Assembly: GCA_944389925.1 (NCBI GenBank)
Contig: CALXOD010000043.1
Location: forward strand, 1 to 57,840
Direction: 5' to 3'
DNA length: 57,840 bases
Origin: an uncultured Victivallaceae bacterium
GTDB lineage: Bacteria > Verrucomicrobiota > Lentisphaeria > Victivallales > Victivallaceae
Below the pieces are notes generated by a model. That model did not search any database and was not told where the DNA came from. It saw only the letters and a program-made list of their open reading frames with translations. The first letter of the stretch is position 1. Each line of letters begins with the position of its first letter. A program made the translations under genes and the position numbers. Of this stretch, positions 7,357 to 24,461 are shown piece by piece.

Positions 7357-7412
7357 GAGTATTTTCAATAGAGTTTTCGAACTTCATAAGTGTGAAAGGT
7401 CTAGGAATTATC

Positions 7413-9155
7413 ATGAGGTATCACCGTCTTGTTTTCTGCACGCTCACTGCAAGTTTTCTTCTGATATGGCAGAGCGTCGCCTCGGAAGCTTCGCCAATGG
7501 CAGAAGCCGGACGGCTGTTCAAAGAACGCCTCACCGCGGCAGCCGTTACTCCGGAAACCGGAACCGCCACCGCCCCGATCACGCCTCAGGATATCCCGGG
7601 CAGCGTCGTGTTGATCGGTAGCAGCGATGGGCGCGGCAGCGGTTTCCTGTGCCGGTTGTGGGGCGTTCCGGTGATCGTCACCAATGCACACGTATATGCG
7701 CGCATGTATCAATCCACCATAGAAGACGGACGTCAATACCGTTATACCCCCAAAGCCGCGCTGATTTCCCGGAAACGGGACTTGGCCCTGATCGAAGCGG
7801 ACATTCCCACGGACCGACGCCTGTTTGAAATCGCCGAAAACCTTGCCACCACTCCTCTTAAAACGCCGGCCAATGCCTATGGCGACAGCCTTGGCGCCCG
7901 AGTCATCACGGTTCTGAACGGTCAACTTCTCGGTATCGGCCCGGATGAAATCGAAATCTCCGCCGGCATTGTTCCCGGCAATTCCGGAGGCCCGGTGGTC
8001 AATCAGAAAATGGAAATCATCGGCGTCGCCACTTATTTGAAATTACTGAGTGCAGATGCCAATATGCTGGAAGGTACCCGATTCGGTGCACATACGACGC
8101 AAAACAACAGCGGCGTACGCCGGTTTGCCATCCGCATCGACAACCTGGATCCACAGGAATTCGAAATCTTTGATCCGGTACAGCAGCAGAAGGATCTGAA
8201 CGTCTTTCAGTACCTGACAACCGCTAACGCAAACTTTCGGCGTGCCATCAAAAATGAAAAAGGTATGGCGCTCTGGATTGCTTTTCATCGCGTCTATCGC
8301 CGGGTCAATCCATTCTGGAACTACCAGGGCTCCATCCTGTACCTCAACAAGCTGATCGTTCAGGAACAGCGGCTCATGGCCACCGCCTCCAGCCTGCTGA
8401 ATCTTCCGCTGCATATGTTGACCCCTCAGGAAAACCGGATGGTGAATCACCTGTTTCAGCAAATATCCCGCTACCGGCGGGACAATTTCCGCTGCAATGT
8501 CTGCAACGGAAGAGGCGAACTGCCAGATACCAGACTTCAGGATGGCCGGACCTACTCCTACCAGAGCGACAACAGCCGGAAAATCTGCCCCGAATGTTCC
8601 GGGCTGGGACAGGCAAACGTGCCTTATTACAATATTATGCGAACCAGTCCGATCAGCGTCCGCTACCCGAAATTCCGGATCGCCTCGGTTGCCCCCGGCG
8701 TGGATCAGGCCACCACGTTGAAACTCCTGCAGGCGGGTGATGACGCGGCCCCCCTCAACGTCAACGGTATTTTCCAGCTTTACACGCTGCCCGGCAACCA
8801 TGCCTACTATCAGGCGACCAATACATATCTCACATTCGTCGCCCGGCGTCTGAGCGCCATCAACATTCAGTTTCCGGCGGGACAGTCGTTATGGGAAGAA
8901 CTGAAACAGGATCTGATCCAAAAATTCGGAAAGCCGACCGTCGATTTCGATTACGGCACCCTCTTGGGCTACGTGGTCTTCGAGTACCCGGAAGGGGTCA
9001 TCATGCTGACCAATGAAGATCGCGGCATCCGCCTCACGGCCCGGCATTATCTCCTGACCGAACTCGAAATGCGGTTTCTGGAAAATTTGGGAAAAAAACT
9101 TTTCATCCCGCAGAAAAATAACAGCGGAAAACTTGAGCGCAACTTCTTCATGTGA
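7413..9155 (+). CDS. Secreted trypsin-like serine protease with DnaJ-type zinc motif
   Basis: 580 residues from the chosen ATG. A signal peptide covers about 1-24. A trypsin/HtrA-like protease domain (60-245) shows the full triad: H93 (TNAHV), D123 (KRDLALI) and S191 (GNSGGP). A mostly helical middle follows, then two CxxC pairs spaced as in the DnaJ zinc domain: C361/C364 (CNVCNGRG) and C392/C395 (CPECSGLG). The C-terminal 180 residues are unrecognised. A GTG 21 bases upstream would also be open, but the later ATG gives a clean signal peptide. No PDZ domain is seen. It lies six bases before nfeD. Periplasmic or membrane-associated quality control is an inference from context. Confidence 0.85.
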   Translation: MRYHRLVFCTLTASFLLIWQSVASEASPMAEAGRLFKERLTAAAVTPETGTATAPITPQDIPGSVVLIGSSDGRGSGFLCRLWGVPVIVTNAHVYARMYQSTIEDGRQYRYTPKAALISRKRDLALIEADIPTDRRLFEIAENLATTPLKTPANAYGDSLGARVITVLNGQLLGIGPDEIEISAGIVPGNSGGPVVNQKMEIIGVATYLKLLSADANMLEGTRFGAHTTQNNSGVRRFAIRIDNLDPQEFEIFDPVQQQKDLNVFQYLTTANANFRRAIKNEKGMALWIAFHRVYRRVNPFWNYQGSILYLNKLIVQEQRLMATASSLLNLPLHMLTPQENRMVNHLFQQISRYRRDNFRCNVCNGRGELPDTRLQDGRTYSYQSDNSRKICPECSGLGQANVPYYNIMRTSPISVRYPKFRIASVAPGVDQATTLKLLQAGDDAAPLNVNGIFQLYTLPGNHAYYQATNTYLTFVARRLSAINIQFPAGQSLWEELKQDLIQKFGKPTVDFDYGTLLGYVVFEYPEGVIMLTNEDRGIRLTARHYLLTELEMRFLENLGKKLFIPQKNNSGKLERNFFM

Positions 9156-9161
9156 GGTGCT

Positions 9162-10754
9162 ATGAAACGACTGATGACAGGCTGGCTGACGATTTTGCTA
9201 CTGCTGGTGGCAGCGGCAACGGCAAAATGCGTGACGCCCGGCGCCGGAGAAACGGCGGATCGCCGGCTCTTCACCTCCGGGGATGGTGACGGAACCGTTT
9301 ATTACGTTCCGCAATTCACGGAATTCAAAGAGGTATCCGAGGCGGATCTGCTGTTTCTGCGCAAGGTGCTCAAACGCGCCCGGCAAGAAGGGGTTCGCGC
9401 CGTGATTTTTGAACTTGATACTCCGGGCGGCAGGGTGGATGTGGCATTGCGCTATCTGTCCGTTTTCGCAAAATCCGAGGTCCCGGTGGTGGCTCACCTC
9501 AACCCGCAGGGGATTTCCGCCGGCATGATCATTGCACTGGCTGCAGATCGGATTGCCATCGACCACCACGGCGTCATCGGCGACGCCATGCCGCTGGCGG
9601 TCACTCCGGGAGGCACGCGCCCGATCACGGCCCCACCGGATAAAACGCCGCCGGCCACATCCGAATCGGATAAATCCGAAAAACCGGCAGACAAACCGGA
9701 AAAACAACCGAAACCCGCTTCTCCTTCCACCTGGGAACCGCTGCTGGAAGAGATTCGGAAACTGCGCAAAGACGATTCGCGACAGCCACTCACCAACGAA
9801 GAAAGACGGCTGGCAGATCAGAAATTCCTGACCGTCTTCTTTAAAGTGCTGCAAGTGCTGGCAGAAAAAAACGACCGTCCGGTCAAAGTCATCCGCGCCA
9901 CCGCCGATCCCTATACGGTGCTCACCGTCAAAGACGACGGCATTCAGCATGACGGCCGCGCACCGCTGACACTGTCCGCGACGGAAGCACAGAAACTGGG
10001 AGTCGTCGATTACGTTGTCCGCGGTCGCAACGACATCCTGGCGGAGATCGGCCTGCCCAATGCCCGGATTGAAGAAATACGCCCAAGTTCCACAGATCAG
10101 ATATTTTCGTTTCTGGCCCATCCGACGGTGGCGGGCATATTGGTCATGCTGGGATTGGTCGGACTTTTCGTGGAGGTAAAAACCCCCGGGTTCGGGGTGC
10201 CGGGCATTCTCGGAATCTGTGCAGTAGTCCTGTATTTCATCGGACAGATCGCGGTAGGAGCGTCAGAATGGGGACCGATGGTGATCTTCTTCATCGGCGT
10301 GGTGTTGCTGGCGCTGGAAATCTTTCTGATTCCCGGCTTCGGCCTGGTCGGAGTGCTGGGCGGAGTCTGCGTACTGGGCTCCATGGTGGCTGCGTTCGGC
10401 TTTGACAACCTAGAAACGGCCGTTCAGGTAGTTGGAGGCGGCCTGATTGCCGCCCTGCTGATCATCACGGTGCTGGTGATGTATGTATTGCCAAAAACTG
10501 CACTGTTCCGGCGATTTGCACTGGCGGAGGCAGTCGGCCGTGACGGCGGGGAAGAGGCCGCCCAGGCGGAAGCGTTGGTAGGTCAGGAAGCGGGGACTGT
10601 GGGGAAAGCCATTTCGCCTCTGCGACCGTCCGGAACGGTAGAACTGGACGGGAAGCGTTTTGATGCAGTCACCGAAGGGGATTTCATCGATGCCGGCTGC
10701 GAGGTACAGGTCGTCGGGAAACGTAATTTCCAACTGATTGTTCGTAAAATCTGA
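9162..10754 (+). CDS. nfeD: Long-form NfeD, membrane-bound ClpP-class serine protease
   Basis: 530 residues. A signal or anchor helix occupies 5-20. A ClpP-class protease domain follows, with the probable nucleophile S119 in GISAGM and a probable general-base lysine near K221. It is interrupted by a lysine/proline-rich insert at about 155-190. Several transmembrane helices span 315-445, and a small OB-fold NfeD domain fills about 465-530. Long NfeD proteases are known to be encoded next to flotillin-like partners and to cleave hydrophobic segments of membrane proteins. Here two floA genes follow directly, matching that pairing. The ATG is six bases from the preceding stop, after GAGG. Confidence 0.92.
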   Translation: MKRLMTGWLTILLLLVAAATAKCVTPGAGETADRRLFTSGDGDGTVYYVPQFTEFKEVSEADLLFLRKVLKRARQEGVRAVIFELDTPGGRVDVALRYLSVFAKSEVPVVAHLNPQGISAGMIIALAADRIAIDHHGVIGDAMPLAVTPGGTRPITAPPDKTPPATSESDKSEKPADKPEKQPKPASPSTWEPLLEEIRKLRKDDSRQPLTNEERRLADQKFLTVFFKVLQVLAEKNDRPVKVIRATADPYTVLTVKDDGIQHDGRAPLTLSATEAQKLGVVDYVVRGRNDILAEIGLPNARIEEIRPSSTDQIFSFLAHPTVAGILVMLGLVGLFVEVKTPGFGVPGILGICAVVLYFIGQIAVGASEWGPMVIFFIGVVLLALEIFLIPGFGLVGVLGGVCVLGSMVAAFGFDNLETAVQVVGGGLIAALLIITVLVMYVLPKTALFRRFALAEAVGRDGGEEAAQAEALVGQEAGTVGKAISPLRPSGTVELDGKRFDAVTEGDFIDAGCEVQVVGKRNFQLIVRKI

Positions 10755-10799
10755 TTTCAAGATCCCGAAACAACATTTTTAACAGAAAGGATTGTATTC

Positions 10800-11702
10800 A
10801 TGGGATGGGGGTTGTGGAGTTTCATCCTGCTGGGACTGGCGGCACTGGGGCTGCTGTGGCTGTTTCTGGTCGTCATTCCCGTCCGTCACTGGGTAGCGGC
10901 GCTCTGTTCCGGAGTGCCCGTCGGTATCTTCACGTTGATCGGGATGCGGCTGCGCCAGGTGCCGCCACACCTGATTGTCGATGCCATGATTCAGGCTCAT
11001 AAAGCTGGCATCGGGCTCTCTACGGACGTGCTGGAAGCGCATTTTCTCGCCGGCGGCAATGTCATGCGTGTGGTGGCGGCACTGGTAGCCGCGGACAAGG
11101 CCAATATCGCACTCTCCATCCAGCGGGCAACCGCCATCGACCTGGCCGGTCGTAATGTCCTCGAAGCCGTCAAAATGTCGGTCAATCCCAAAGTGATTGA
11201 AACTCCGGAAGTCACCGCCATGGCCAAGGACGGCATTCAAGTCAAAGCCATCGCCCGGGTTACGGTACGGGCCAATATCGACCGATTGATCGGCGGCGCC
11301 GGAGAGCAAACCATTCTGGCCCGTGTCGGAGAAGGCATCGTCACCACCATCGGCTCGGCCACCAGCCACAAGCAGATCCTGGAAAACCCCGACATGATTT
11401 CGAAGACCGTACTGAAAAAGGGCCTGGATTCCGGTACCGCCTTTGAAATTCTCTCCATCGATATCGCCGACGTGAATATCGGCAAAAACATCGGTGCCCA
11501 GCTTCAGACTGACCAGGCCAACGCCGATAAAAACATCGCCCAGGCAAAAGCCGAGGAGCGCCGCGCCATGGCCGTCGCCCAGGAACAGGAAATGCTCGCA
11601 CGGATCGGAGAAATGCGCGCAAAACTGGTCGCGATGGAAGCGCAGGTCCCGCTGGCCATCGCTCAGGCCTTCCGCAGCCCGGATCTCAAAATGGGCAACT
11701 GA
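10800..11702 (+). CDS. floA: Flotillin-like protein FloA, copy 1 (short C-terminus)
   Basis: 300 residues of the FloA (UPF0365) family, the bacterial flotillin-like scaffold of membrane microdomains. An N-terminal membrane hairpin covers about 5-45. The conserved body follows (VGMRLRxVPP-type motif, HFLAGGNV, a Rossmann-free SPFH region and a helical Ala/Glu-rich stretch). It is closely similar along its whole length to the next gene, so the pair is a tandem duplication. This copy stops near KMGN and lacks the final MDYYRMKN-type tail of the next copy and of typical FloA. The start follows AAAGGA with an 8-base spacer. Confidence 0.93.
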
Positions 11703-11736
11703 ATAACCCTGTAACCCGAAAAGGATTCACATACTT

Positions 11737-12717
11737 ATGGCTGGCATGGTTGGAATTATTGCGCTGCTGGTAGTGCTGGCGGCGGTCTTCGTAATATTTG
11801 TGGTAGTCATCCCGATTCCACTGTGGATCGCGGCAATTTTCTCCGGAGTCCGGGTCAGTGTCTTCGGGCTGGTGGGCATGCGGTTACGCCGCGTCCCGCC
11901 GCAGGTGATTCTCTCTGCCTTGATTCAGGCGCGCAAAGCCGGATTGGAAGGAATCAGCTCCAACGCGCTGGAAGCACATTATCTGGCCGGAGGAAATGTC
12001 TTCCGCGTTATTTTTGCACTGGTGGCGGCGGACAAGGCGGGGATTCCGCTGACGTTGCAGCGAGCCACTGCCATCGACCTGGCCGGACGCGATGTGCTTG
12101 AAGCCGTCAAAATGTCGGTCAATCCCAAAGTCATTGAAACCCCGGTGGTGGCCGCTGTAGCGCAAGACGGTATTCAGCTGCAGGCAGTTGCCCGGGTCAC
12201 GGTCCGGGCCAACATCGACCGGCTGGTCGGAGGTGCTGGCGAGGAAACGGTTCTCGCCCGCATTGGGGAAGGGATCGTCACCACCATCGGTTCCGCAACC
12301 AGCCACAAGCTGGTATTGGAAAATCCTGACATGATCTCCAAAACCGTATTGAAGAAAGGTCTGGATTCCGGTACCGCCTTTGAGATTCTCTCCATCGACA
12401 TCGCCGACGTCGACGTTGGCAAAAATATCGGAGCCGAACTTCAAATGACCCAGGCAAATGCCGATAAGGACATCGCGCAGGCGAAAGCCGAAGAACGCCG
12501 TGCCATGGCCATCGCGCTCGAGCAGGAAATGAAGGCCAAGATCCGCCAGATGGAAGCCGACCTGGTTGCGGCTGAAGCGGAAGTTCCGCAGGCGATCTCT
12601 GAAGCGCTCGCTTCCGGCCGCCTTGGCATCATGGATTACTACCGGATGAAAAACGTGATGGCTGATACCGACATGCGCCATGCCATCGCCAAACCGGCTG
12701 CCGCCGCCGCAGAATAA
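11737..12717 (+). CDS. floA: Flotillin-like protein FloA, copy 2
   Basis: 326 residues, usual FloA length. An N-terminal hydrophobic segment (5-40) precedes the flotillin-like core, which contains long stretches nearly identical to copy 1 (such as [13 protein letters not shown] and [17 protein letters not shown]). The complete C-terminal tail with MDYYRMKN is present, ending in an alanine-rich run. FloA proteins form oligomers at the cytoplasmic membrane and recruit partners such as NfeD. It lies 34 bases after copy 1 and 12 bases before the small membrane protein. Two paralogues could form mixed oligomers; that is inference. Confidence 0.94.
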
Positions 12718-13337: not shown

Positions 13338-15947
13338 TCACTCCGCTTCCTCTGTCAGCATCGTTTCCAGTTCACTGCGAGCTTCGGGCTGTGCACTTTG
13401 TGGCAGCTCGGCCACGCAACGGAAACCAATATCATTTTCACTGTCCCCGGAGCTGCCGATGGACCAGCAACGTGCCTGGCCGGCCCCGGTCAGGTAGGAA
13501 CCGCCCATCACACTGTAAATGTCTCCATCCATATCCGGATTGCGGACAAACTCACGCACATTTCCCGCCAGGTCCTCCACGCCGTAACTGGATCGATCCA
13601 GCGGAAATGTTCCCGGTGGCGCCCCCACCGGATAGGAGGCACGCTTCGGATGTTCGCTCAGCAGAGCGGCATCCTTTCGGAAATCATCCCCCCAGACATA
13701 GGAACGGGCATCAGCGCCCCGCCCGGCCTTTTCCCATTCCAGAACGGTCGGCAGGCGATAGGTCAATCCGGTTTTCCGACTGAGATAACGGCAGTAGGCC
13801 TCTGCCGCTTTTCCGGTAATGCCGACCACCGGCAGATCCTCCCGGAAGGGAGGCAGCAACCTGCCTTCCGCATCCCACAAATCATACGCTTTCCGGTCGG
13901 GGGCGGTAAAGCGTCCCATATAGGCCGCCTTTTGCTCCGGATGCCGCAGTTGCTTCCAGAACTCCAGATATTGCCCGAACGTCACCTCATGCCGGTCAAT
14001 CAGAAACGCCGGCAACGTCACCTGCCGTGCCAGAGAAGAACCCAAAGCATCGCTATAGTGGAATTCTCCTCCGGGAACCAGAATCATTCCTTCCGGAATT
14101 TCCGGAATCGCCGTGATCTCCACACACGCCTCTCCCGCCGGCGCCAGAATAACCGGGAAATACACCGGCGGACGCCGCGGCGCTTCTATTCTGATCAGAT
14201 AGCTCCCGGAATGCAGGTGCTCCAATCGCGCATTCGGCTCCACTTCTTCCCAATCCTCTCTCTCATCAGGGGACGCCATTTCGTCCTGACGCAGATAAAC
14301 CCGGACGTTTTCCGGAAGTTCCAACTGCAGAATACTCTCATCCTCCTCCACCCGCCGTACCAGCTCCGCCAGCTCGCCATTATGCCGGAATAAATCCGGA
14401 AGCAACGCCTTCCAGCGGGAATTCAGCTGACGCAGCAACGACCGGAGCATGCGATCATTTCCGGAGGTAATACAGAATTTGACCTGCCGAAACATCGTGT
14501 CCGCCAGAATTCTCACCATCTCTTCCCGCATCGATTCGCTGCGCACACCGCGGTATTCAATCGCCGACAAACTCTCAATGGCAGCACTGCAATAACTGAA
14601 AAATTCCATTGTCTGCCGGGAGAGTTCATTATCCAGATCCATCCGCCGCTTCCCTGCCGCAGGAGACCCCAGACCGGTATCGTGTTGCAGCTGCCGGGAA
14701 GTACGCAACGCCAGATTGTAATAGGCCTCCGCCTGGGACACATTATAACGAACCACCTGCATCAGAGAACTGGTCTGAATATATTCGGAAATCCGATTGA
14801 CCAGATATACTCCCCCCACGGACAACAAAGCAGCCAGCAACGTGACCGGCACCAGCGGCCGTCGAAGACATAATTTCAACAGCCGGTAGAACCAGCTCGG
14901 CGAATAAGCTTCCACCGGATATTTATCCAGATAGTTACGCACCTCTCGAATCAGACTCTGCACATCGGGATAACGGTTTTCACGCCGGCGACTCATTGCC
15001 TTGAGGGTAATGGCCTCCAGTTCCCGTGGAATTCCCAGCAGCGGCGCCCGACGCCGGGGCCGGACCAGCCGCCCTGCCACCACGTCCCGCAATAATGCCT
15101 CAGTCGGCTTGCTGCTGTCATACGGCGCCGGTTCCAACGTCAGCATGGAATAGAGAATGGCCCCCAGGCAATACACATCGGTCCGCTCGTCAATCTCATC
15201 ATTCCGTCCAGTCGCCTGTTCCGGAGCCATATAGGCGGGAGTTCCGCTGATCAGCGGCCCCTGCCCCGCCCGCGGCGGCTCGGGAGCAAGCGCGCCGTCC
15301 AGTTCCAGAGACATTTTTTTCCCATTCACCGACTGATCTTTCTCCTGGCGATAGGTGGCCAGTCCCCAGTCCAGAATCAGAACTTCTCCATAATCTCCGA
15401 GCATAATGTTGCCCGGTTTGAGGTCGCGATGGATGATGCCGCGGCGATGGGCGAATGCCACCCCTTGACAAACAGAGATGAAAATTTCCATCCTTCGCTG
15501 CAAGGAATAACGCCGTTGATAATCCGCCTGATTCTCCGCCAATTTCCGAATGACGGAACGCAGGGTTTCCCCTTCCACCCGCCGCATGGTAAAATAGACA
15601 CCGACATCACGGAAAATTCCGATACGATGCACCGGCACAATATTCGGATGGTCGATCTGCGCCGTGGTGCGGGCTTCCCGGATAAAACTCTCGATATGCC
15701 GCATCTGATTGCGGAATTCCGGGCGCAATACTTTCAGTGCCACTTCACGATTCAAGCCCGGTTCCTGAGCCGAAAAAACCGCTCCCAGCCCTCCCATGCC
15801 AATGGCGGAAAGACCGGAATAATCCTTGATGTCATCGCCTTGCGGCAACTCCAGCAAGGCCCGCAATTCCTCCGGCGACAGCTTCGCCTCTCCGGGAGAA
15901 CCGTAGATAATGGTACGATCCTCGTCGGAAATCTCACGGGAGTTCAT
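13338..15947 (-). CDS. Ser/Thr protein kinase fused to an FGE/SUMF1-type domain
   Basis: 869 residues. An N-terminal PknB-type kinase domain (about 45-345) has the glycine loop GMGGLG at 50-55, catalytic K72, HRDLKPGN at 173-180 and DWG (D193) in place of DFG. One transmembrane helix lies near 364-384. A helical linker follows (about 390-600), then an FGE-sulfatase/SUMF1-type domain at about 620-848 (ILVPGGEF, NVREFV, GGSYL, GFRC). Both cysteines of catalytic formylglycine-generating enzymes are absent: positions 820 and 825 are Thr and Ala. The outer domain is therefore probably a binding module. Topology suggests kinase inside and FGE-like domain outside. It is the last gene of a leftward operon, 12 bases after the coiled-coil gene. 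Confidence 0.92.
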   Translation of the reverse strand: MNSREISDEDRTIIYGSPGEAKLSPEELRALLELPQGDDIKDYSGLSAIGMGGLGAVFSAQEPGLNREVALKVLRPEFRNQMRHIESFIREARTTAQIDHPNIVPVHRIGIFRDVGVYFTMRRVEGETLRSVIRKLAENQADYQRRYSLQRRMEIFISVCQGVAFAHRRGIIHRDLKPGNIMLGDYGEVLILDWGLATYRQEKDQSVNGKKMSLELDGALAPEPPRAGQGPLISGTPAYMAPEQATGRNDEIDERTDVYCLGAILYSMLTLEPAPYDSSKPTEALLRDVVAGRLVRPRRRAPLLGIPRELEAITLKAMSRRRENRYPDVQSLIREVRNYLDKYPVEAYSPSWFYRLLKLCLRRPLVPVTLLAALLSVGGVYLVNRISEYIQTSSLMQVVRYNVSQAEAYYNLALRTSRQLQHDTGLGSPAAGKRRMDLDNELSRQTMEFFSYCSAAIESLSAIEYRGVRSESMREEMVRILADTMFRQVKFCITSGNDRMLRSLLRQLNSRWKALLPDLFRHNGELAELVRRVEEDESILQLELPENVRVYLRQDEMASPDEREDWEEVEPNARLEHLHSGSYLIRIEAPRRPPVYFPVILAPAGEACVEITAIPEIPEGMILVPGGEFHYSDALGSSLARQVTLPAFLIDRHEVTFGQYLEFWKQLRHPEQKAAYMGRFTAPDRKAYDLWDAEGRLLPPFREDLPVVGITGKAAEAYCRYLSRKTGLTYRLPTVLEWEKAGRGADARSYVWGDDFRKDAALLSEHPKRASYPVGAPPGTFPLDRSSYGVEDLAGNVREFVRNPDMDGDIYSVMGGSYLTGAGQARCWSIGSSGDSENDIGFRCVAELPQSAQPEARSELETMLTEEAE

Positions 15948-15959
15948 AATCGGCTCCGT

Positions 15960-17744
15960 TTACTCTCTGCCGGAGGCATTTTCCCGTGCCCGAATGGCCG
16001 AAAGAACCGGTTGAGCAGCTCTGGAAAAACTTTCGAGATAATCCGAAGACGGCGATTTTGCGATCGGCATGGTAAAAACATTGTCCCAGTTGAAATTATC
16101 CGGGAACACCACACAGCGCGCTTCCTGACGCCGCCCCATGTCGCGGCTTTCCACTGCGACGACTACCGCCACGAATTCGCCCTGCTTGGTCAAGACAAAA
16201 TCACCGGGCTCAGCCCGCAGTTCACTCCCTGTCCCCCGAGCCGTATTGCGAATGTACAAATACTCGTCACCATCTGCGAAGTTCATGGAGCAACGCCCTT
16301 CCAGAGAGCTGGACTCCTTCCCGAACGCCGAAAATTTAAATAAGTACAAATCCTGGATGCCCCGCTGCTTTAAAGCGGAAAGCGTCAACACTTCCAGCGG
16401 CTTACGCTGATCATTCTTCACCTCCAGCAAACCAACGCGGCTTTCTCCGCGCGGCGCATACAGCGGTCCGGATAATACCTGCGCCGGGGCATCTCCTTCC
16501 GGCAACGAAACAGCGTAAGCAAGATCGGTGATGTTGTCAAAATTATGCCGCTCTCTGGCATTACCGGTCAACAGCAGAAAATCACCGACCACACAGCTGC
16601 GGCCGCCGATATTGACCAGCGGCAGAAAATATTCCGCCTCGGCAGTCATGGGAATCATCAGCCGGATTTCTCGGAGTTTGAGTTGCAGCCGCACCACTGC
16701 GGACGAATAGCGCTCCAGCACGTCGCTGCGCAGCCTTTCCTCGGCAAGCGCCAGCTGGGTTCGGGTCGACTTGAGTTCAGCTCCGGCCACTTCGGACTGT
16801 TTCTGAATCTCCAGCAACCGGGCGGCGGTCTCCTCGGCATTCTTTTTGGTAGTCGCCAGTTCCGCCCGGGTTTTTGACAAATCAGAAACGGCGTTCTTCA
16901 AAACGGTCTGAAGATTCTCCAGGCGGCGTCGGGCTTCGGTCAATTCCAGATCGCGGGTGTTAACCGCCTTCTGGGCCCGCTCAAACCGGCTCTGGGATTC
17001 GGCCAGCTCCTTTTCCGTGGCACTCAACCGGCCGCGAGTAAAGGACAGCATGGTCTCAAACTCCCGGTTCTTGCTCCGGGTCGCCTCGGATTCCTTTTCC
17101 AGCTGGCTCAATTCGGCCCGCGTCCGATTGAGATCGGCCTCGCGGACGGCGAGGGACTCCCGATATTGATTGAGGGACGCTCCGGCATCGCCGAGTTTCT
17201 TCTTTTGTTCGGTAAGATCCGCCTGGGTTCGGGCCAGCTCCGCCTGCCGGGCGGCCAGTTCTTCCCGCAATGTCGCATTATGGTCACTGGTTTCTTTTTG
17301 ACGAGCGCGCAGGACGGCCAGTTCCCGTTCCGCATCGCGGTGACGGATGTTCAACTGCAGCCGGTTCTTGACTTCTTTTTCCAACTGTGCCTGCAGCTGT
17401 TCCGGCGTCAAGGCGCCACTGTTTTCCGGTGTGAGCGCCAGTTTTTTTTCCAGAAACTCACTGCGTGCCTGAGATTCGGCCAGCTGCCGGGTCAAGGCCT
17501 GTATCTCCGCTTCGCGGGATGCGGCAAAACCCTTTTCAAACTGAGCATCCAGAAGGGCCTTGCGCGCCTCTTCCAGCCGGGCTTGTTCCTGGCGCAGGGA
17601 ATTCATCACCATCGCCGCGGTATGACTGTCGAGCGGCGCTCCGTGACTGCCGAAGGGATTCTCCACCGGCGATACTCCGGTGGCCAGCGACAGCATCGCA
17701 GATACGATGAAGTCGCAGATGACGATGAGAATGGCGCGATTCAC
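15960..17744 (-). CDS. Membrane-anchored long coiled-coil protein
   Basis: 594 residues. A single N-terminal hydrophobic helix (about 3-22) is followed by a short linker, a very long charged coiled coil (about 45-360, rich in Glu, Arg, Ala, Leu and Gln heptads) and a globular beta-rich domain (about 365-580). The anchor begins with the unusual MNRAILIVICDF. The start is GTG, overlapping the upstream stop as GTGA, so translation is coupled to the MotA-like gene. An anchor plus a long rod after a MotA/TolQ-like channel resembles MotB- or ZorB-like partners in layout, though no peptidoglycan-binding OmpA motif was recognised. Function unknown. Confidence 0.85.
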   Translation of the reverse strand: MNRAILIVICDFIVSAMLSLATGVSPVENPFGSHGAPLDSHTAAMVMNSLRQEQARLEEARKALLDAQFEKGFAASREAEIQALTRQLAESQARSEFLEKKLALTPENSGALTPEQLQAQLEKEVKNRLQLNIRHRDAERELAVLRARQKETSDHNATLREELAARQAELARTQADLTEQKKKLGDAGASLNQYRESLAVREADLNRTRAELSQLEKESEATRSKNREFETMLSFTRGRLSATEKELAESQSRFERAQKAVNTRDLELTEARRRLENLQTVLKNAVSDLSKTRAELATTKKNAEETAARLLEIQKQSEVAGAELKSTRTQLALAEERLRSDVLERYSSAVVRLQLKLREIRLMIPMTAEAEYFLPLVNIGGRSCVVGDFLLLTGNARERHNFDNITDLAYAVSLPEGDAPAQVLSGPLYAPRGESRVGLLEVKNDQRKPLEVLTLSALKQRGIQDLYLFKFSAFGKESSSLEGRCSMNFADGDEYLYIRNTARGTGSELRAEPGDFVLTKQGEFVAVVVAVESRDMGRRQEARCVVFPDNFNWDNVFTMPIAKSPSSDYLESFSRAAQPVLSAIRARENASGRE

Positions 17745-18289
17745 TTTTCACCCTCGCTTTTGGCGATGATCAGCTGCTTCCGCAACGGATAGTTCAGCGA
17801 AAGCCGCAATGTCAAACTGAAAATAATCCCGATCAGCGTCGAAGAATAAGCGATCAGGCGACTGCTCGTCGGAGAGAACGTCATCACCAGAAACGACGAC
17901 ACCGTCCCGAACAAACCGATATAAAGCGGCACATCCAGAAAAATATCCGCATTTTCCAGCTGCTTGAGCTTCAATGCCGGACTCAATTCCGACCGCCGGA
18001 TCCGCCCGATCACCACCGATGCCACAAACAGTGCAGCAAACTGCATCAGCGTCACCCCGCCGAAAACAAACATGGAAATCCTTCCCGCCAATTCCTCGCG
18101 CATCGCCAGGGTTGCCGGATCGCCGGTCGGGAGTTTGCCGATCGCCGCGCCCGTCTGCGCTCCCGGACCGCTGAACAAACTGCGGAAAGCAGGAGAATGA
18201 TTGAACGCATAATTCATCCAGTACAATACGCCGATGAAAATCAGCACCAGTAAAATCGTTTTCCAGATCAGGCCGGCATGTTTCTTCAT
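17741..18289 (-). CDS. Four-helix membrane protein, possibly MotA/TolQ/ExbB-like
   Basis: 182 residues from the chosen ATG, with hydrophobic helices near 8-27, 72-94, 119-138 and 145-165. The last two carry GLFGTV and AYSSTLIGI, resembling the paired conserved helices of MotA/TolQ/ExbB proton channels. This is weak, by-eye similarity. The frame is open to an ATG at 18376, but the promoter at 18377-18405 predicts transcription from about 18370, so that codon would not be transcribed. An in-frame ATG at 18307 is possible; 18289 has GGAG 11 bases upstream and starts at the first helix. It overlaps the coiled-coil gene by four bases, and the kinase follows. Confidence 0.75.
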   Translation of the reverse strand: MKKHAGLIWKTILLVLIFIGVLYWMNYAFNHSPAFRSLFSGPGAQTGAAIGKLPTGDPATLAMREELAGRISMFVFGGVTLMQFAALFVASVVIGRIRRSELSPALKLKQLENADIFLDVPLYIGLFGTVSSFLVMTFSPTSSRLIAYSSTLIGIIFSLTLRLSLNYPLRKQLIIAKSEGEK

Positions 18290-18376
18290 AAGAACGCAAC
18301 GCTCCATGGTTATCGCCGGTCCCGAACGATGCCGGACCGGACGCGCATCATCGTTTTTTTCCGCACTCGTATTCAT

Positions 18377-18405
18377 AAGATAACCGCCATTGAATCAATA
18401 TGCAA
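18377..18405 (-). promoter_or_regulatory. Promoter of the MotA-like/coiled-coil/kinase operon
   Basis: On the minus strand: -35 TTGCAT (18405-18400), 17 bases, -10 TATCTT (18382-18377). It predicts a start near 18370 and argues against the most upstream ATG of the next gene. Confidence 0.65.
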
Positions 18406-18436: not shown

Positions 18437-18487
18437 GAAAAAACAAAAAACCGCCCCCTTCCGGCCTTACAGCTCGGAAGAGAGCGG
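18437..18487 (-). terminator. Rho-independent terminator of the V-ATPase operon
   Basis: On the minus strand a 13-bp stem with two G-U pairs (18487-18475 with 18463-18451) is followed by TTTTTTG and six more T. It lies 33 bases after the subunit K stop. Confidence 0.9.
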
Positions 18488-18519: not shown

Positions 18520-18996
18520 TCAGAGCACCATGATGGCAAACACCAGCACGAACAGCGCCACGGTTTCAATCACCCCGAGAATCATCAGGCTGTTGGCAAA
18601 CCCCTTCTCGGTTTCCCCGAACGCATCGCAGGCGGCCGCCGCGGCCTTGCCCTGGTAAATCGACGAAAACATGAAGCCGACTCCGGCAAAAATCCCCAGC
18701 ATAAAATGGAAGAGCATCATCGGATTTGCCGGATCCATCTTGCCTTTGATCACCATCATCAGCACCAGCGCATAAATCGTCTGCGACAGCGGCGATCCCG
18801 CAAACACAGTCAGCAGAAACGGCGCCGGCTTGTTCATCATGTACCGGCGTTTCCAGGCACCGATCGCCGCGGAACCGGCAATCCCGGCACCAATGCTCGA
18901 TCCGATCGCCGCCAGTCCGATTGCCGCATAACCACCGCACAGCGACAGCGACTGGATAATTTTCATGATGACGTCCTGATTCAAAGTCTGTTCCAT
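18520..18996 (-). CDS. atpK: V-type ATPase subunit K (rotor ring proteolipid)
   Basis: 158 residues in four membrane helices, a duplicated hairpin proteolipid. The ion-carrying glutamate is E144 (GVIETVAL). Q72 in PLSQTIYA and Q115 in YQGKAAA fall where the Na+ ligands of Enterococcus NtpK (Q65, Q110) are found. The equivalent glutamate of the first hairpin is absent, as is usual for this form. The subunit forms the rotating membrane ring driven by, or driving, ATP hydrolysis or synthesis. It is the last gene of the operon, 21 bases after subunit I, with a terminator behind it. Na+ use is suggested but not proven by these residues. Confidence 0.93.
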   Translation of the reverse strand: MEQTLNQDVIMKIIQSLSLCGGYAAIGLAAIGSSIGAGIAGSAAIGAWKRRYMMNKPAPFLLTVFAGSPLSQTIYALVLMMVIKGKMDPANPMMLFHFMLGIFAGVGFMFSSIYQGKAAAAACDAFGETEKGFANSLMILGVIETVALFVLVFAIMVL

Positions 18997-19017
18997 TTTT
19001 CTTTCCTCTCCTTGGAG

Positions 19018-20799
19018 TTATCGTTCCATTGCGATGTTCTGATTGTCTTTTATCCGTCTCCGGAAGGGGTTGAATTCAAACCCCGCCCAGCGCAAACCGA
19101 GGTGGTTGGAGAATTCCAGCGTATTGAGCCGCACGCCGTGCACCAGCACCGCCATGGCGGCCAGTGCGATATTCAGCAGGTGACCGAGCAGCAGCACCAG
19201 CAATCCGAGGGGAATCGTCAATGCCCGATCCATCAATGGCGCCGCCATGTCGTTGAAGCAGGCTGCCAGATAAAAGCTGGACATCCCCACCGCAAACAGA
19301 CGAATGTAGGACAACACATCGACAAAACTGCCCACCACACTGAACGGAAATGCAAAAATACTGCCGACATCCTTCCAGTCGATCTCTCCGATGGCCGTCA
19401 AGACGACTCCCACTCCGTAGCAAACCATCAGCCACCCCGGATACTCGCCAGGATACAGCAGCAGTTTGCAGATCAATACGAAGTTGCCGAACAGAATGCA
19501 GAACCAGCCCAGCTGACCAGCCACATTGCGCCAGTGGCGATCGCCACTCAGCCGCATCGCATGCCCCAGCGCCAGCTGCGCCAGCGCCAGAATAAAGCAG
19601 ATCAGCTGCACATGCTGGTCCTTGGCCGGATCACTGGCCAGCCAGGGCAACCCCTTGCACTGAACCCCGAAATAATTGCCGGTCAGTCCTCCCCAGACCA
19701 CGGCGGCGAGACTCAGCAGCACCAGCAGCGCCAGCGGCAGCCGGGCAGCCGGAACCGCCCGCTTCGCATACAGGCCGTAACCGGAAAGCGCCAGAAAAAT
19801 CAGCCCGTAACCGGCATCGCCCACCAGCATTCCGAAGAAAATGGTGAAGAAAAACAATACCGGCACACTGACGTCGCGTTCATCATATCCCGGGGAAATC
19901 GCCAGAAACTTCATCAACGGCTCAATCAACCGCGCCCAGCGCGGTGGATCCAGCAACGTCGGCACCGCTTCCCGTTTCGGATCGGCCGGACGGTGCAGTA
20001 CCCCCCAGCCGTGCGCCCGCACGCTGGCGAGCACCTTCTCCAGCTCCGGCTCCGGCACAAAACCGGACAGCGTCAGCAGCCGACCATGATCGGCCAGCGT
20101 ATCGCGGACGGTTACAAAATCCAGCGTTTCGGCAATTTCATCATGATAACGGCGCAACAACGGCAGTTCACAACGAATCCGCATCAATTCCTGTTCATTG
20201 GCGGCCAGCTCCGCTCGCCGTGCGGACAATGCCTCCCGGAGCTGCTTCAGCGTCAGCGTTCCGGAAAACTTCGCCAGCGGCAGTTCTTCCGCTGGAATAT
20301 CCTGATCGCTGATCACCACAAACAGCCGGTCTTTGCCTTCCGTACCCACTTCCCGGCAGAGCCGCCCGGCGGACTTGACCGCCTCCAGTTCCGCGGCACT
20401 CCCCCGGCAAAGATAAACCCGCAGACCGCGGCGGCGCAACGCCGTCAGCATTTCAGCGGAAAAATCTCCCCAGGGGGCCAGTTCCGCCGCCTGCTGCTGC
20501 AGCTGTTCCTGTTCCCGAGTCAGGCGCGCCCGGTCGTTGAAAAGTTGCTGCGCATTCCGGAAAACAGCTTCCCCGGTCTCGTCGCCGGCACCGCCGCTGT
20601 TGGCCGCCGGCATCGCTTCCAGCAATCCAAGCACCCGCCCGATTTCTCCGAGCCGGGTGGCCAGATTGGTACGGCCGGCGTTCTCCGCGAGTTCCACGGA
20701 TTCGACATGCATCACGCCGAGTTCACGCAGATCCCGGACCGCAGCAAGGCGGTCTTCCGCCGGCATGATCAGCGTCAGTTTTCGCATTGGTACAATCAT
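19018..20799 (-). CDS. atpI: V-type ATPase subunit I (membrane stator, a-subunit)
   Basis: 593 residues. The cytoplasmic N-terminal half (about 1-300) is rich in alpha/beta segments and short coiled coils. The C-terminal half holds about seven or eight membrane helices, with the FFGMLVGDAGYG motif typical of the family near 320. It provides the ion half-channels facing the K ring and anchors the peripheral stalk. The start overlaps the subunit D stop by four bases (ATGA). Length is normal. Confidence 0.94.
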   Translation of the reverse strand: MIVPMRKLTLIMPAEDRLAAVRDLRELGVMHVESVELAENAGRTNLATRLGEIGRVLGLLEAMPAANSGGAGDETGEAVFRNAQQLFNDRARLTREQEQLQQQAAELAPWGDFSAEMLTALRRRGLRVYLCRGSAAELEAVKSAGRLCREVGTEGKDRLFVVISDQDIPAEELPLAKFSGTLTLKQLREALSARRAELAANEQELMRIRCELPLLRRYHDEIAETLDFVTVRDTLADHGRLLTLSGFVPEPELEKVLASVRAHGWGVLHRPADPKREAVPTLLDPPRWARLIEPLMKFLAISPGYDERDVSVPVLFFFTIFFGMLVGDAGYGLIFLALSGYGLYAKRAVPAARLPLALLVLLSLAAVVWGGLTGNYFGVQCKGLPWLASDPAKDQHVQLICFILALAQLALGHAMRLSGDRHWRNVAGQLGWFCILFGNFVLICKLLLYPGEYPGWLMVCYGVGVVLTAIGEIDWKDVGSIFAFPFSVVGSFVDVLSYIRLFAVGMSSFYLAACFNDMAAPLMDRALTIPLGLLVLLLGHLLNIALAAMAVLVHGVRLNTLEFSNHLGLRWAGFEFNPFRRRIKDNQNIAMER

Positions 20800-21404
20800 G
20801 CGGGCACCTCGCTGCTTTTCTTTTTCGCAATTTTGGAACGGGCCACGGCAGCGGTACTCTGATCACCCAGCTGAATCTGAATGCGGCGGATATTCTCCCG
20901 ACATTCCGGAATCTTCACCTTTTCAAACAGATTGACCCGCTGGCTGGTGGTCCGCAACTCATTGCTGAGCAAACGCTCCTGTTCTTCGATAATCCGCCCG
21001 GCGGCCCGAAGCGCCACTGCATCCTTCAATGCGCTGATCGCCTCGTCCATATACCAGGCCGTAGCCACCGGATCCGGTGCCGGCATCTCGAATTCCGCAT
21101 GACCGAACGTCGGCACCATCACTCCGGCAATATTCATCTGACCGCGTTCGACACGCACCAGCCGCAACCCGGCAATCACCTCGTCAAGCATCGCCCGGTC
21201 ACCGAAAACGGCAATCCATTCGTGCAACTGCCCGACCAGTTGTCGCTGCTGCTCCCGATTCTCTTCGAGCCGTTCCCGGCTGAGGCGGATTTCCACCTGC
21301 AGCTGCTGTTTCTTGAGCTGCAGCGTAGGCAGGAAGCGACGGTACTGCCGTAACGCATCCTGCTGCGCCTTGAGTTCGGTTTTGGTTAATTTGATCTTGC
21401 CCAT
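20796..21404 (-). CDS. atpD: V-type ATPase subunit D (central stalk)
   Basis: 202 residues, almost entirely helical. The characteristic N-terminus (KIKLTKTELKAQQDALRQYR) and the long C-terminal helix form the antiparallel coiled coil of the rotor axle inside the A3B3 head. It lies 14 bases after subunit B and overlaps subunit I by four bases. Length matches the family. No subunit F gene, the usual rotor partner, is present in this operon. Confidence 0.94.
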   Translation of the reverse strand: MGKIKLTKTELKAQQDALRQYRRFLPTLQLKKQQLQVEIRLSRERLEENREQQRQLVGQLHEWIAVFGDRAMLDEVIAGLRLVRVERGQMNIAGVMVPTFGHAEFEMPAPDPVATAWYMDEAISALKDAVALRAAGRIIEEQERLLSNELRTTSQRVNLFEKVKIPECRENIRRIQIQLGDQSTAAVARSKIAKKKSSEVPA

Positions 21405-21418
21405 GGTCTTGCTTTTTT

Positions 21419-22735
21419 TCAGTTCGAGCCGTCAGTGGCGGCATCTTTCGGCCAGTATTCGCGCACCAGGTCACTCTTGATCCCGACCTCCGTCCGATCG
21501 AAGCATTCGGCCAGAGTCTTCCAGCCGAGATCCAGCGCCTCTTCCAGCGGAATATTCACTGAGAGGTCCATCATGCGCGCTTCGAAAAGCTTCCCGTATT
21601 TGAGCAGCTTATTGTCCCATTCGGTCATCATGAAGCCCATCGACTGCTTTTCCAGCGCCCCCTTGTAATCCGAATAAAGCCGAATCATGGAGTCCATAAT
21701 CGCCCGGTGGTCAGGGCGTGTCCGACCGTTCACCTGCTGTTTCAGACGGCTCAGAGAGCCGAACGGCTCAATGCGCCCGTGCCGCAGATAGAACTGCCCC
21801 TCGGTAATATAACCGGTATTGTCCGGCACCGGATGGGTCACGTCATCCCCCGGCATGGTTGTCGCCGCCAGAATGGTAATGGAACCGGCGCCATCGAAGT
21901 CCACCGCCTTTTCGTAACGGGAAGCCAGCTGGCTGTAGAGGTCGCCGGGATAACCGCGGTTCGACGGGATCTGTTCCATGGTAATGGAAATTTCCTTGAG
22001 TGCATCGGCGAAGTTGGTCATATCGGTCAGCAGCACCAGCACCCGCTTCCCGGCCAGAGCGTAACTTTCCGCCACAGCCAGCGCCATGTCCGGCACCATC
22101 AGACACTCCACCGTCGGGTCGGCGGCGGTATGGATGAACATCACCGTCCGAGACAACGCCCCCTGGGCATCAAGCGTATTCCGGAAAAACAGATAGTCGT
22201 CATACTTCAATCCCATACCGCCGAGCACGATCACGTCAACTTCGGCCTGCAGGGCGATTCGCGCCAGCAGTTCATTGTACGGCTCGCCCGCCACGGAGAA
22301 AATCGGCAGTTTCTGCGATTCCACCAGGGTGTTGAACAAGTCGATCATCGGCAACCCGGTACGAATCATGTTCCGGGGGATGATCCGCTTGGCCGGATTG
22401 ACCGAGGGGCCGCCGATTTCGATCATATCGTCGGTAATCGGCGTACGGTTGTCACGCGGCGCGCCGCGGCCATTGAAAATCCGCCCCAGCAATTTTTCCG
22501 AACCGGACACCTGCATCGGGTGTCCCAGAAAACGCACTTCGTCGCCGGTGCTGACACCGCGGCTCCCCGCGAACACCTGCAAAAACACTTTATTGTCCTG
22601 CAGCCGGATCACCTGCGCCAGCGAACTGCCGCGGCGGCTGGTCACTTCGGCCAGTTCGTTGTAAGCGACATTGTCGGCTTCCACGGCGATCACGTTGCCG
22701 ACGATTTGAATGATTTTATGATACACTTTACGCAT
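21419..22735 (-). CDS. atpB: V-type ATPase subunit B (regulatory, non-catalytic)
   Basis: 438 residues from the ATG at 22735 ([14 protein letters not shown]). The frame is open further upstream, but only as overlap with subunit A. The beta-barrel N-terminus is followed by the nucleotide-binding fold with the degenerate P-loop region ([10 protein letters not shown]) expected of non-catalytic B subunits, then the SxMxxxE-type helical C-terminus. B alternates with A in the soluble head and shapes the catalytic interface. The start overlaps the end of subunit A by eight bases, implying translational coupling. Confidence 0.95.
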
Positions 22736-24461
22736 TGCTACGGCACTCCGTGATTTTGGCTTCAATCGCCGCCTGCTGGCTCTTGAATTCTTCCGTATCG
22801 CTCTTGAGGTAATTCCAGTCAATAAACAGCTGGCGCAGCTCCAGGAAATAGCGGCGGGCCGCTGCCTTGTCAGGGAAGGAGAATTTCGTATCCAGCACCA
22901 CCAGAACCTGATCAAACATCAGTTTCTGCCGCGCCGCGCTGCAGGCGCCGTCCACCGCGTCGAAGGTGTTCTGCTGCAAATACACATAGTCCAGAAATTC
23001 GCTCTTGAGGTAGATCACGAAGTCGTCGATGTGTGTTCCGTCTTCCCCGATCACCTTCATCATCTGGTTGACTTCACTGCCGCGTGCCAGAATTTCCCGG
23101 GCCTTGGCCAGCGGGGCGGCGGCCACCAGACTGGGGTATTTGCTCCAGCTTTCCAGCGGGTTGATCGCCGGATAACGCCGGGCATCGGACCGTTCCCGGG
23201 AAAGCCCGAGGAAACATCCCACCACCTTCAGCGTCGCCTGCGTCACCGGCTCTTCGAAGTTCCCGCCCGCGGGGCTGACCGCGCCGCCGATGGTGACGCT
23301 GGCGGTCTCCCCGGTCTTCAGCCGCACCAGACCGGCGCGTTCGTAAAAGTCCGCGATCCGCGATTCCAGATACGCGGGAAACGCTTCTTCGCCGGGAATT
23401 TCTTCCAGACGCCCGGACATTTCCCGCAACGCCTGCGCCCAACGGGATGTCGAGTCGGCCAGAAGCAGAGTATTCAACCCCATCTGCCGGTAATATTCCG
23501 CCAGTGTCACCGCCGTGTAGACCGACGCTTCCCGCGCGGCAACCGGCATACTGCTGGTATTGCAGATGATGATGGAACGGTCCATCAGCGACCGCCCGGT
23601 ACGCGGGTCTGACAAATGCGGATATTCGCGCAGAATTTCCACCACTTCCCCGGCACGCTCTCCGCAAGCGGCGACGATCACCACATCGGCTTCGGCATTC
23701 TGACTGATGGTATGCTGCAACACGGTTTTGCCGGCGCCGAAGGGGCCGGGGGTGCAGAACGTGCCGCCGCGCGCCACCGGAAAGAAAGTGTCAATGATCC
23801 GGGTCTGCGTAATCAAGGTGTTTTCCGGCAGCAACTTTTCCTCGTAATGGGGAATCGGAATCTTCACCGGCCAGTATTGCAGCATGGTCACGTCGCGAGT
23901 TTCCCCGTCGGCGTTGCGCACCACGGCCACAGTATCCACCACCCGGTAATCACCGGCGGGTTTGAGTTCTGTCAGCTCCCACTCACCGCTCCAGGCCAGA
24001 GGAATCATAATATAATGCTTGAAAATCCCCTCCATCACAAATCCGATCCGGTCGCCGGCCGTGACCTTCGCCCCGACAGTCGCCTCGGGCGTGAATGTCC
24101 AGAATTTTTCACGATCCAGAGCATGCAGGTAAATTCCCCGCTTCAGAAAGAAACCGGATTTCTCCGCCAGCAACTGCAACGGATTCTGCAACCCGTCATA
24201 CACACCGGTCAACAAGCCGGGTCCGAGTTCCACACTGAGCAGCTCACCGGTGAATTCCACCGGGTCGCCGACGGACAATCCGTTGGCACTCTCGAACACC
24301 TGCATATCGGCCCGATTGCCGCGCACCCGAATGACTTCGCTTTTCAACCGTTCCTCGCCGACGATGGCATACGCCACTTCGTTCTGCGAGACGCCGGCCT
24401 CAAATTCGACGGTCAACATATTCCCGTTGACGCCGACGATTTTGCCTGTTTTCTCCGGCAT
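22728..24461 (-). CDS. atpA: V-type ATPase catalytic subunit A
   Basis: 577 residues. A beta-barrel N-terminus (1-75) is followed by the non-homologous bulge region typical of V/A-type A subunits (about 110-200). The Walker A motif is GPFGAGKT at 239-246, and the Walker B and catalytic glutamate region is followed by a helical C-terminal domain. It hydrolyses or makes ATP in the soluble V1/A1 head. The ATG is preceded by GAGAAGAGGAG-type sequence. It follows the DUF2764 gene by 91 bases. Confidence 0.96.

Follow-up and report, generated by a model that had tools for sequence, protein, structure and literature searches.

An operon in a 57,840-nucleotide stretch of DNA from an uncultured Victivallaceae bacterium (the window, which is contig C43 in a draft genome of 2.8 Mb) encodes two membrane proteins, A and B, that probably form an ion-driven unit of the MotAB/ExbBD/TolQR/ZorAB type, with a periplasmic rod conveying its output to a tip of pseudo-protease type. 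Ion-driven motors power the rotation of flagella and exert pull on the outer membrane; to our knowledge, those built as ring and axle come from a handful of families only. If A and B are a motor, a pair spread across a large part of Verrucomicrobiota and unseen by current family models adds a branch to this group, the rod with its pseudo-HtrA tip is a new type of periplasmic output, and the means by which these bacteria carry energy outward from the inner membrane, as far as the wall or the outer one, becomes open to test. The kinase-linked form found here would, as far as the open-access literature shows, be the first such unit tied by its operon to a Ser/Thr kinase. The broader proposal, that such ion-driven motors of the envelope make up a widespread and as yet unnamed class, with a ring family to itself, a partner combining axle, rod and pseudo-protease, and direct kinase control in Victivallales, is tentative and, taken as a whole, doubtful.

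The genes for A, B and the kinase occupy positions 13338-18289 of the minus strand and are transcribed in that order (Table 1). The initial annotation described them as tightly coupled, and the ORF coordinates agree: the stop of A overlaps the start of B within GTGA, and the kinase ORF begins 12 bases past the stop of B. An alternative start for A at 18376 is possible and would give a product of 211 residues. The single shared promoter claimed for the three genes was not recovered in a consensus promoter scan, but a terminator-like site upstream parts the operon from the genes of the V-type ATPase. The description of the products holds in each case. Both motifs (GLFGTV and AYSSTLIGI) and four hydrophobic helices are seen in A; the N-terminal anchor, coiled coil of about 300 residues and globular tail ascribed to B correspond to a membrane helix, a repeat region and a modelled tail; and the third gene carries the Pfam domains and the helix expected of a membrane kinase with an FGE-like domain.

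Table 1. Features of the A-B-kinase operon and its upstream border, in window coordinates
Feature	Position	Strand	Basis or remark
Kinase gene	13338..15947	-	869 aa; accessory in Victivallales
FGE-like domain, residues 619-845	13413..14093	-	Pfam; probably both periplasmic and non-catalytic
Kinase membrane helix, residues 365-383	14799..14855	-	Hydrophobicity
Ser/Thr kinase domain, residues 46-342	14922..15812	-	Pfam; catalytic residues
Gene B	15960..17744	-	594 aa, GTG start; coiled-coil protein with a membrane anchor; putative "axle" (as a dimer) and rod
B residues 336-594, HtrA/trypsin-fold tip	15963..16739	-	Model, structure match, conservation
B residues 44-345, coiled-coil rod	16710..17615	-	Heptad repeat
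B residues 4-22, only membrane helix	17679..17735	-	Asp11 codon 17712-17714, invariant
GTGA, A stop/B start overlap	17741..17744	-	Sequence
Gene A	17741..18289	-	182 aa from ATG 18289; membrane protein with four helices; putative subunit of a ring ("wheel")
A residues 147-155, AYSSTLIGI, fourth helix	17825..17851	-	TolQ/ExbB counterpart in alignment: AL.TT..GL
A residues 125-130, GLFGTV, third helix	17900..17917	-	TolQ/ExbB counterpart in alignment: GLLGTV
Terminator-like hairpin	18447..18468	-	Between V-ATPase subunit K and gene A

A and B are inherited as a pair. In a scan of bacterial species genomes, A had 36 relatives, almost all of them under the label Lentisphaeria; one is in Victivallis vadensis, which carries the operon (L007). 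The source genome, too, belongs to Lentisphaeria to judge from its closest relatives. The two genes are adjacent in all 36 loci, with the kinase next in most. Together with 60 more, 96 loci were read, and B adjoins A in 95 of these. Genome G343 (loci L083 and L164) keeps both genes some 70 kb apart, and its B retains the membrane Asp. Among the first 20 distant loci read, A and B are the only neighbours common to different families. In related genomes the A-B-kinase order persists amid different flanks, to an extent far beyond chance. A profile search finds A in 126 of 388 sampled Verrucomicrobiota genomes, one copy each (125 with a broader profile); the survey was of Verrucomicrobiota genomes, and restriction to the phylum is therefore not claimed. 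No homologue of A was found among plasmids and phages, so that a role in mobile defence is not favoured. The initial annotation let its case depend on the three genes staying together in related genomes; the proposed A-B pair stands up to this, at 95 of 96 loci, while the kinase is missing from the 20 distant loci first read.

The conservation within A is concentrated where a pore would be expected. Hydrophobic helices span residues 5-23, 76-94, 116-134 and 145-163, and charge placement puts both ends of the protein inside; about 20 residues separate helices 2 and 3, and the chain stops about 15 residues past helix 4. Entropy is approximately 1.0 bit in helices 3 and 4 versus 2.3-2.8 bits in helices 1 and 2, as expected if helices 3 and 4 line the pore. 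Within these two best-conserved helices, positions 129 and 151 align with conserved Thr residues of TolQ/ExbB, and hydroxyl residues prevail at both predicted lumen positions: across 94 homologues, position 129 is Thr in 84 and Ser in 10 (Thr or Ser in 94/94), and position 151 is Thr in 90 and Asn in four. Invariant in the same set are Q83, L122, Y123, G125, A147, Y148 and G154. In many distant lineages the four-helix core forms the C-terminal end of a protein of about 570 residues (for example L081:4904-6586, L069:4839-6494 and, on the minus strand, L086:6331-8034), preceded by an extra N-terminal helix and a domain of about 310 residues. This domain is probably periplasmic, judging by its charge pattern; it has no match among Pfam and NCBIfam models, and its role in these lineages might be to hold the ring fast to the wall.

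The complementary element resides in B, whose only membrane helix bears Asp11 at every aligned locus (95 of 95) and likewise in the unlinked B at L164, for a total of 96 of 96; the residues around it vary (ICDF, IMDF, MIDV). The flanking charges (mean +1.0 vs -0.6) fit an N-in/C-out orientation, such that B has the hallmark of an axle, a lone N-terminal helix with an acidic residue in this orientation. A profile comparison of the helix with ExbD N-termini was uninformative, the segment being too short. Beyond the anchor, residues 44-345 show a strong 7/3-residue hydrophobic repeat, the heptad harmonic. Matches of B to SMC and Rad50 were rejected as coiled-coil background, and the only PADLOC match of B is to a coiled-coil stretch of ZorA1 (E 0.007). 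The AlphaFold2 model of the tail (pLDDT 93.6) matches DegP with an E value of 4.9e-7 and a probability of 1.00, and superposes on HtrA/DegP over 182 residues at 3.2 Å (Z 12.7). No catalytic Ser/His/Asp triad is conserved in the three corresponding regions, which were placed by eye, and an invariant G-D stands in place of the catalytic residue in the Ser-loop region. An HtrA fold lacking conserved catalytic residues identifies the tip as a pseudo-protease.

In known motors the Asp of the axle is set against a ring of Ser/Thr on the wheel (PMC11890865, PMC9389320), as in ZorAB, where the ZorB Asp packs against the ZorA Ser/Thr ring (PMC11890865). A and B have both elements, the Asp helix and the hydroxyl positions. 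By this model, A would form a ring with helices 3 and 4 lining the lumen and carrying the hydroxyl residues, the N-terminal helices of a B dimer would stand inside it, and Asp11 would serve as the ion-binding residue. The short cytoplasmic segment between helices 2 and 3 of A leaves little surface to drive a cytoplasmic rotor. With next to no cytoplasmic domain on A and a long rod on B, force would be expected to exit through B, as has been proposed for GldLM and for the vWA partners of TolQ-like rings (PMC9389320, PMC12204202). The likelier output is, then, the periplasmic coiled coil, which would pass motion or tension to the HtrA-fold tip, and the tip may in turn grip a partner located at the outer membrane or cell wall. 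What the data show is that the pair is conserved, that the Asp never varies, where the hydroxyl residues lie, how many helices there are and which folds are predicted; rotation, ion flow, ring stoichiometry, the direction of output, the partner and any role of the kinase, gating included, are inferred. The same architecture could be read as a static membrane anchor or envelope scaffold, in which A grasps the helix of B by its Asp, the rod and tip of B act as a periplasmic tether or sensor and no ion-driven work is done. The coiled coil and pseudo-protease tip suit a tether, and A has no counterpart of the MotA cytoplasmic torque domain, but an unfailing Asp in a lone membrane helix, paired with conserved Thr/Ser positions in A, is a high price for simple anchoring, making this account rather unlikely.

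The proposed assignment of A as a ring subunit finds support in structural comparison. A Foldseek search with the AlphaFold2 model of A (pLDDT 80.7) returned TolQ and PomA as its first two matches, with non-significant E values (0.6 and worse). Upon realignment, the best entry is type II ZorA (8vvi_C; 98 of 99 residues, 2.2 Å) with a Z of 9.9, in a range (below about 13) that can reflect a common helical arrangement. ZorA, TolQ, ExbB, PomA or MotA account for 17 of the 50 realigned entries, and the order of superposition among these relatives is ZorA, followed by TolQ, PomA, MotA and ExbB. A structural match of the kind that the initial annotation had called for exists among these entries; taken with the E values and the Z, it supports a candidate MotA/ExbB fold, short of proof.

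At the level of sequence, the MotA/ExbB, ExbD and MotB models of Pfam, NCBIfam and PADLOC recognise neither A nor B. PF01618 matches neither A nor appears among the families listed for 28 A homologues, and the TolQ model scores A at 12.5 bits (E 0.09) against a cut-off of 221. A search of PDB sequences with the A profile found nothing, and a search of viral structures yielded no stator. Profile alignment of A with ExbB/TolQ of related genomes places GL.GTV on GLLGTV and A..ST..GI on A..TT..GL, with a score of 23.4; under another treatment of columns the same smaller comparison scores 14.6, about the permutation mean. The score depends on the choice of columns. The 94-sequence profile alone was used further, and its score of 25.4, matched by one of 200 column permutations, is weak. 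Homology of A to MotA/ExbB in sequence is likely but unproven. The original guess of a MotA/ExbB-like protein with a MotB- or ZorB-like partner is supported by structure and adjacency and strengthened by the Asp and the hydroxyl positions, with sequence homology its weak part. The weak sequence statistics and the middling Z values speak for a rival reading, in which A is an unrelated four-helix protein resembling MotA/ExbB by convergence or as a bundle artefact. This explanation is improbable, given that several separate branches of the MotA superfamily appear among the top structural matches, that the register of the motifs agrees, and that B carries the expected Asp helix.

The product of the third gene has a kinase fold complete with the catalytic Lys, Asp and DxG (Pfam Pkinase, 115 bits, cut-off 31.7), and K72, D175, N180, D193 and G195 are invariant in 32 orthologues. 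Its FGE-like domain (Pfam FGE-sulfatase, 107 bits, cut-off 23.3) is found by Pfam in only 17 of the 32 and is probably periplasmic and non-catalytic; by reading, just one of the two FGE active-site cysteines has an apparent counterpart (ARCW...). The solved structures nearest in sequence are the ToxD kinase domain, SUMF2, CalU17 and PorK. Kinases bearing FGE-like domains have long been known (PMC1262709). The kinase follows B at 58 of 64 usable loci in the family of the window (f1) and at one of two in f4. It is absent from ten loci of family f2, of the same order (one with an incomplete span), from the first-read 20 distant loci over spans of 9-13 kb, and from the other distant lineages beyond f1 and f4. 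The kinase is a Victivallales addition outside the A-B core, as its absence from the distant and f2 loci indicates. The three-gene set first claimed is common in f1 but is not the conserved core, nor is the FGE-like domain a constant part of it. In Victivallales, the co-encoded transmembrane kinase would probably report on or regulate the A-B unit, whose state it may sense or control. A chiefly signalling operon, with the kinase as the active part and A and B relaying an envelope signal to it, would account for the frequency of the kinase in f1 and its invariant catalytic residues, but is very improbable in view of the occurrence of A and B without it across the rest of the phylum, in the ten f2 loci and in several f1 loci. 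An ABC-F-like ATPase gene lies 3' of the kinase in L013, L004 and about 20 other Victivallales loci, and directly after B where the kinase is missing; the window has no such gene.

Among published systems, the TPH-vWA group (PMC12204202) is the closest in kind to A and B, from which it differs in tip and ring. There too, a TolQ-like ring gene adjoins that of a partner with an Asp "transpore" helix and its own periplasmic output domain, and the group also occurs in Verrucomicrobia. The TPH-vWA tip is a vWA domain, pairs are mostly heterologous and the ring can be recognised as homologous to TolQ, whereas A escapes TolQ models and has one partner gene, with a coiled coil and a pseudo-HtrA tip; no vWA domain is seen at the C-terminus of B, which models as an HtrA/trypsin fold. 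Type II ZorAB (PDB 8VVI, PMC11890865) offers the nearest structure: the resolved ZorA core (residues 1-99), with its short cytoplasmic linker, superposes on residues 78-179 of A, and its partner likewise has an essential Asp in its only helix beside a Ser/Thr ring. In ZorAB, however, the long tail is cytoplasmic and belongs to the ring subunit, whereas the ring here is nearly tailless and it is B that carries the rod, on the periplasmic side. The ZorB tip is a wall-binding domain, in contrast to the HtrA fold of B; no Zorya partner genes lie nearby, and inheritance is phylum-wide rather than patchy. PADLOC gives no match for A, which ends too soon after helix 4 to hold a long ZorA tail.

GldLM shares with A and B a motor ring, a long periplasmic shaft and a co-operonic protein with a repurposed FGE fold. 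The GldM shaft consists of globular domains rather than a coiled coil with an HtrA-fold tip, and unlike in GldLM-K, the FGE domain is carried by the kinase and is optional; the FGE protein scores 52.3 bits against the GldK family cut-off of 350. MotAB/PomAB, ExbBD and TolQR resemble A and B in MotA-like four-helix topology, the GL.GTV and A..T..G motifs, the Asp helix and gene adjacency. Unlike these systems, A and B lack both a large cytoplasmic domain and a periplasmic domain of OmpA or ExbD-like type, and have no PF01618 match; specifically, neither the large domain between helices 2 and 3 of flagellar MotA nor an OmpA-like domain on B is present. On available evidence, A and B would work like a 5:2 motor, yet fall outside the MotAB, Zorya, type IX and vWA systems on features that were tested. 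No paper on the A-B-kinase set was found in the open-access literature, and no curated family names A-B.

The surroundings of the operon in the window include a V/A-type ATPase operon directly upstream of gene A (18520-24461; K, I, D, B and A subunits by reading). Convergent to the kinase, positions 7392-12717 hold, by reading, genes for a trypsin-like protein that bears a DnaJ-type zinc finger and for an NfeD-like protease, together with a tandem pair of flotillin-like (FloA) genes. Among the 36 loci of the species scan, flotillin-like and V-ATPase neighbours are kept only in the closest relative, and the idea that the V-type ATPase operon is linked to A and B was rejected on this ground. Elsewhere, the source genome has three conventional PF01618 genes, on contigs C7, C34 and C8, so that gene A is additional to ExbB/TolQ rather than a replacement.
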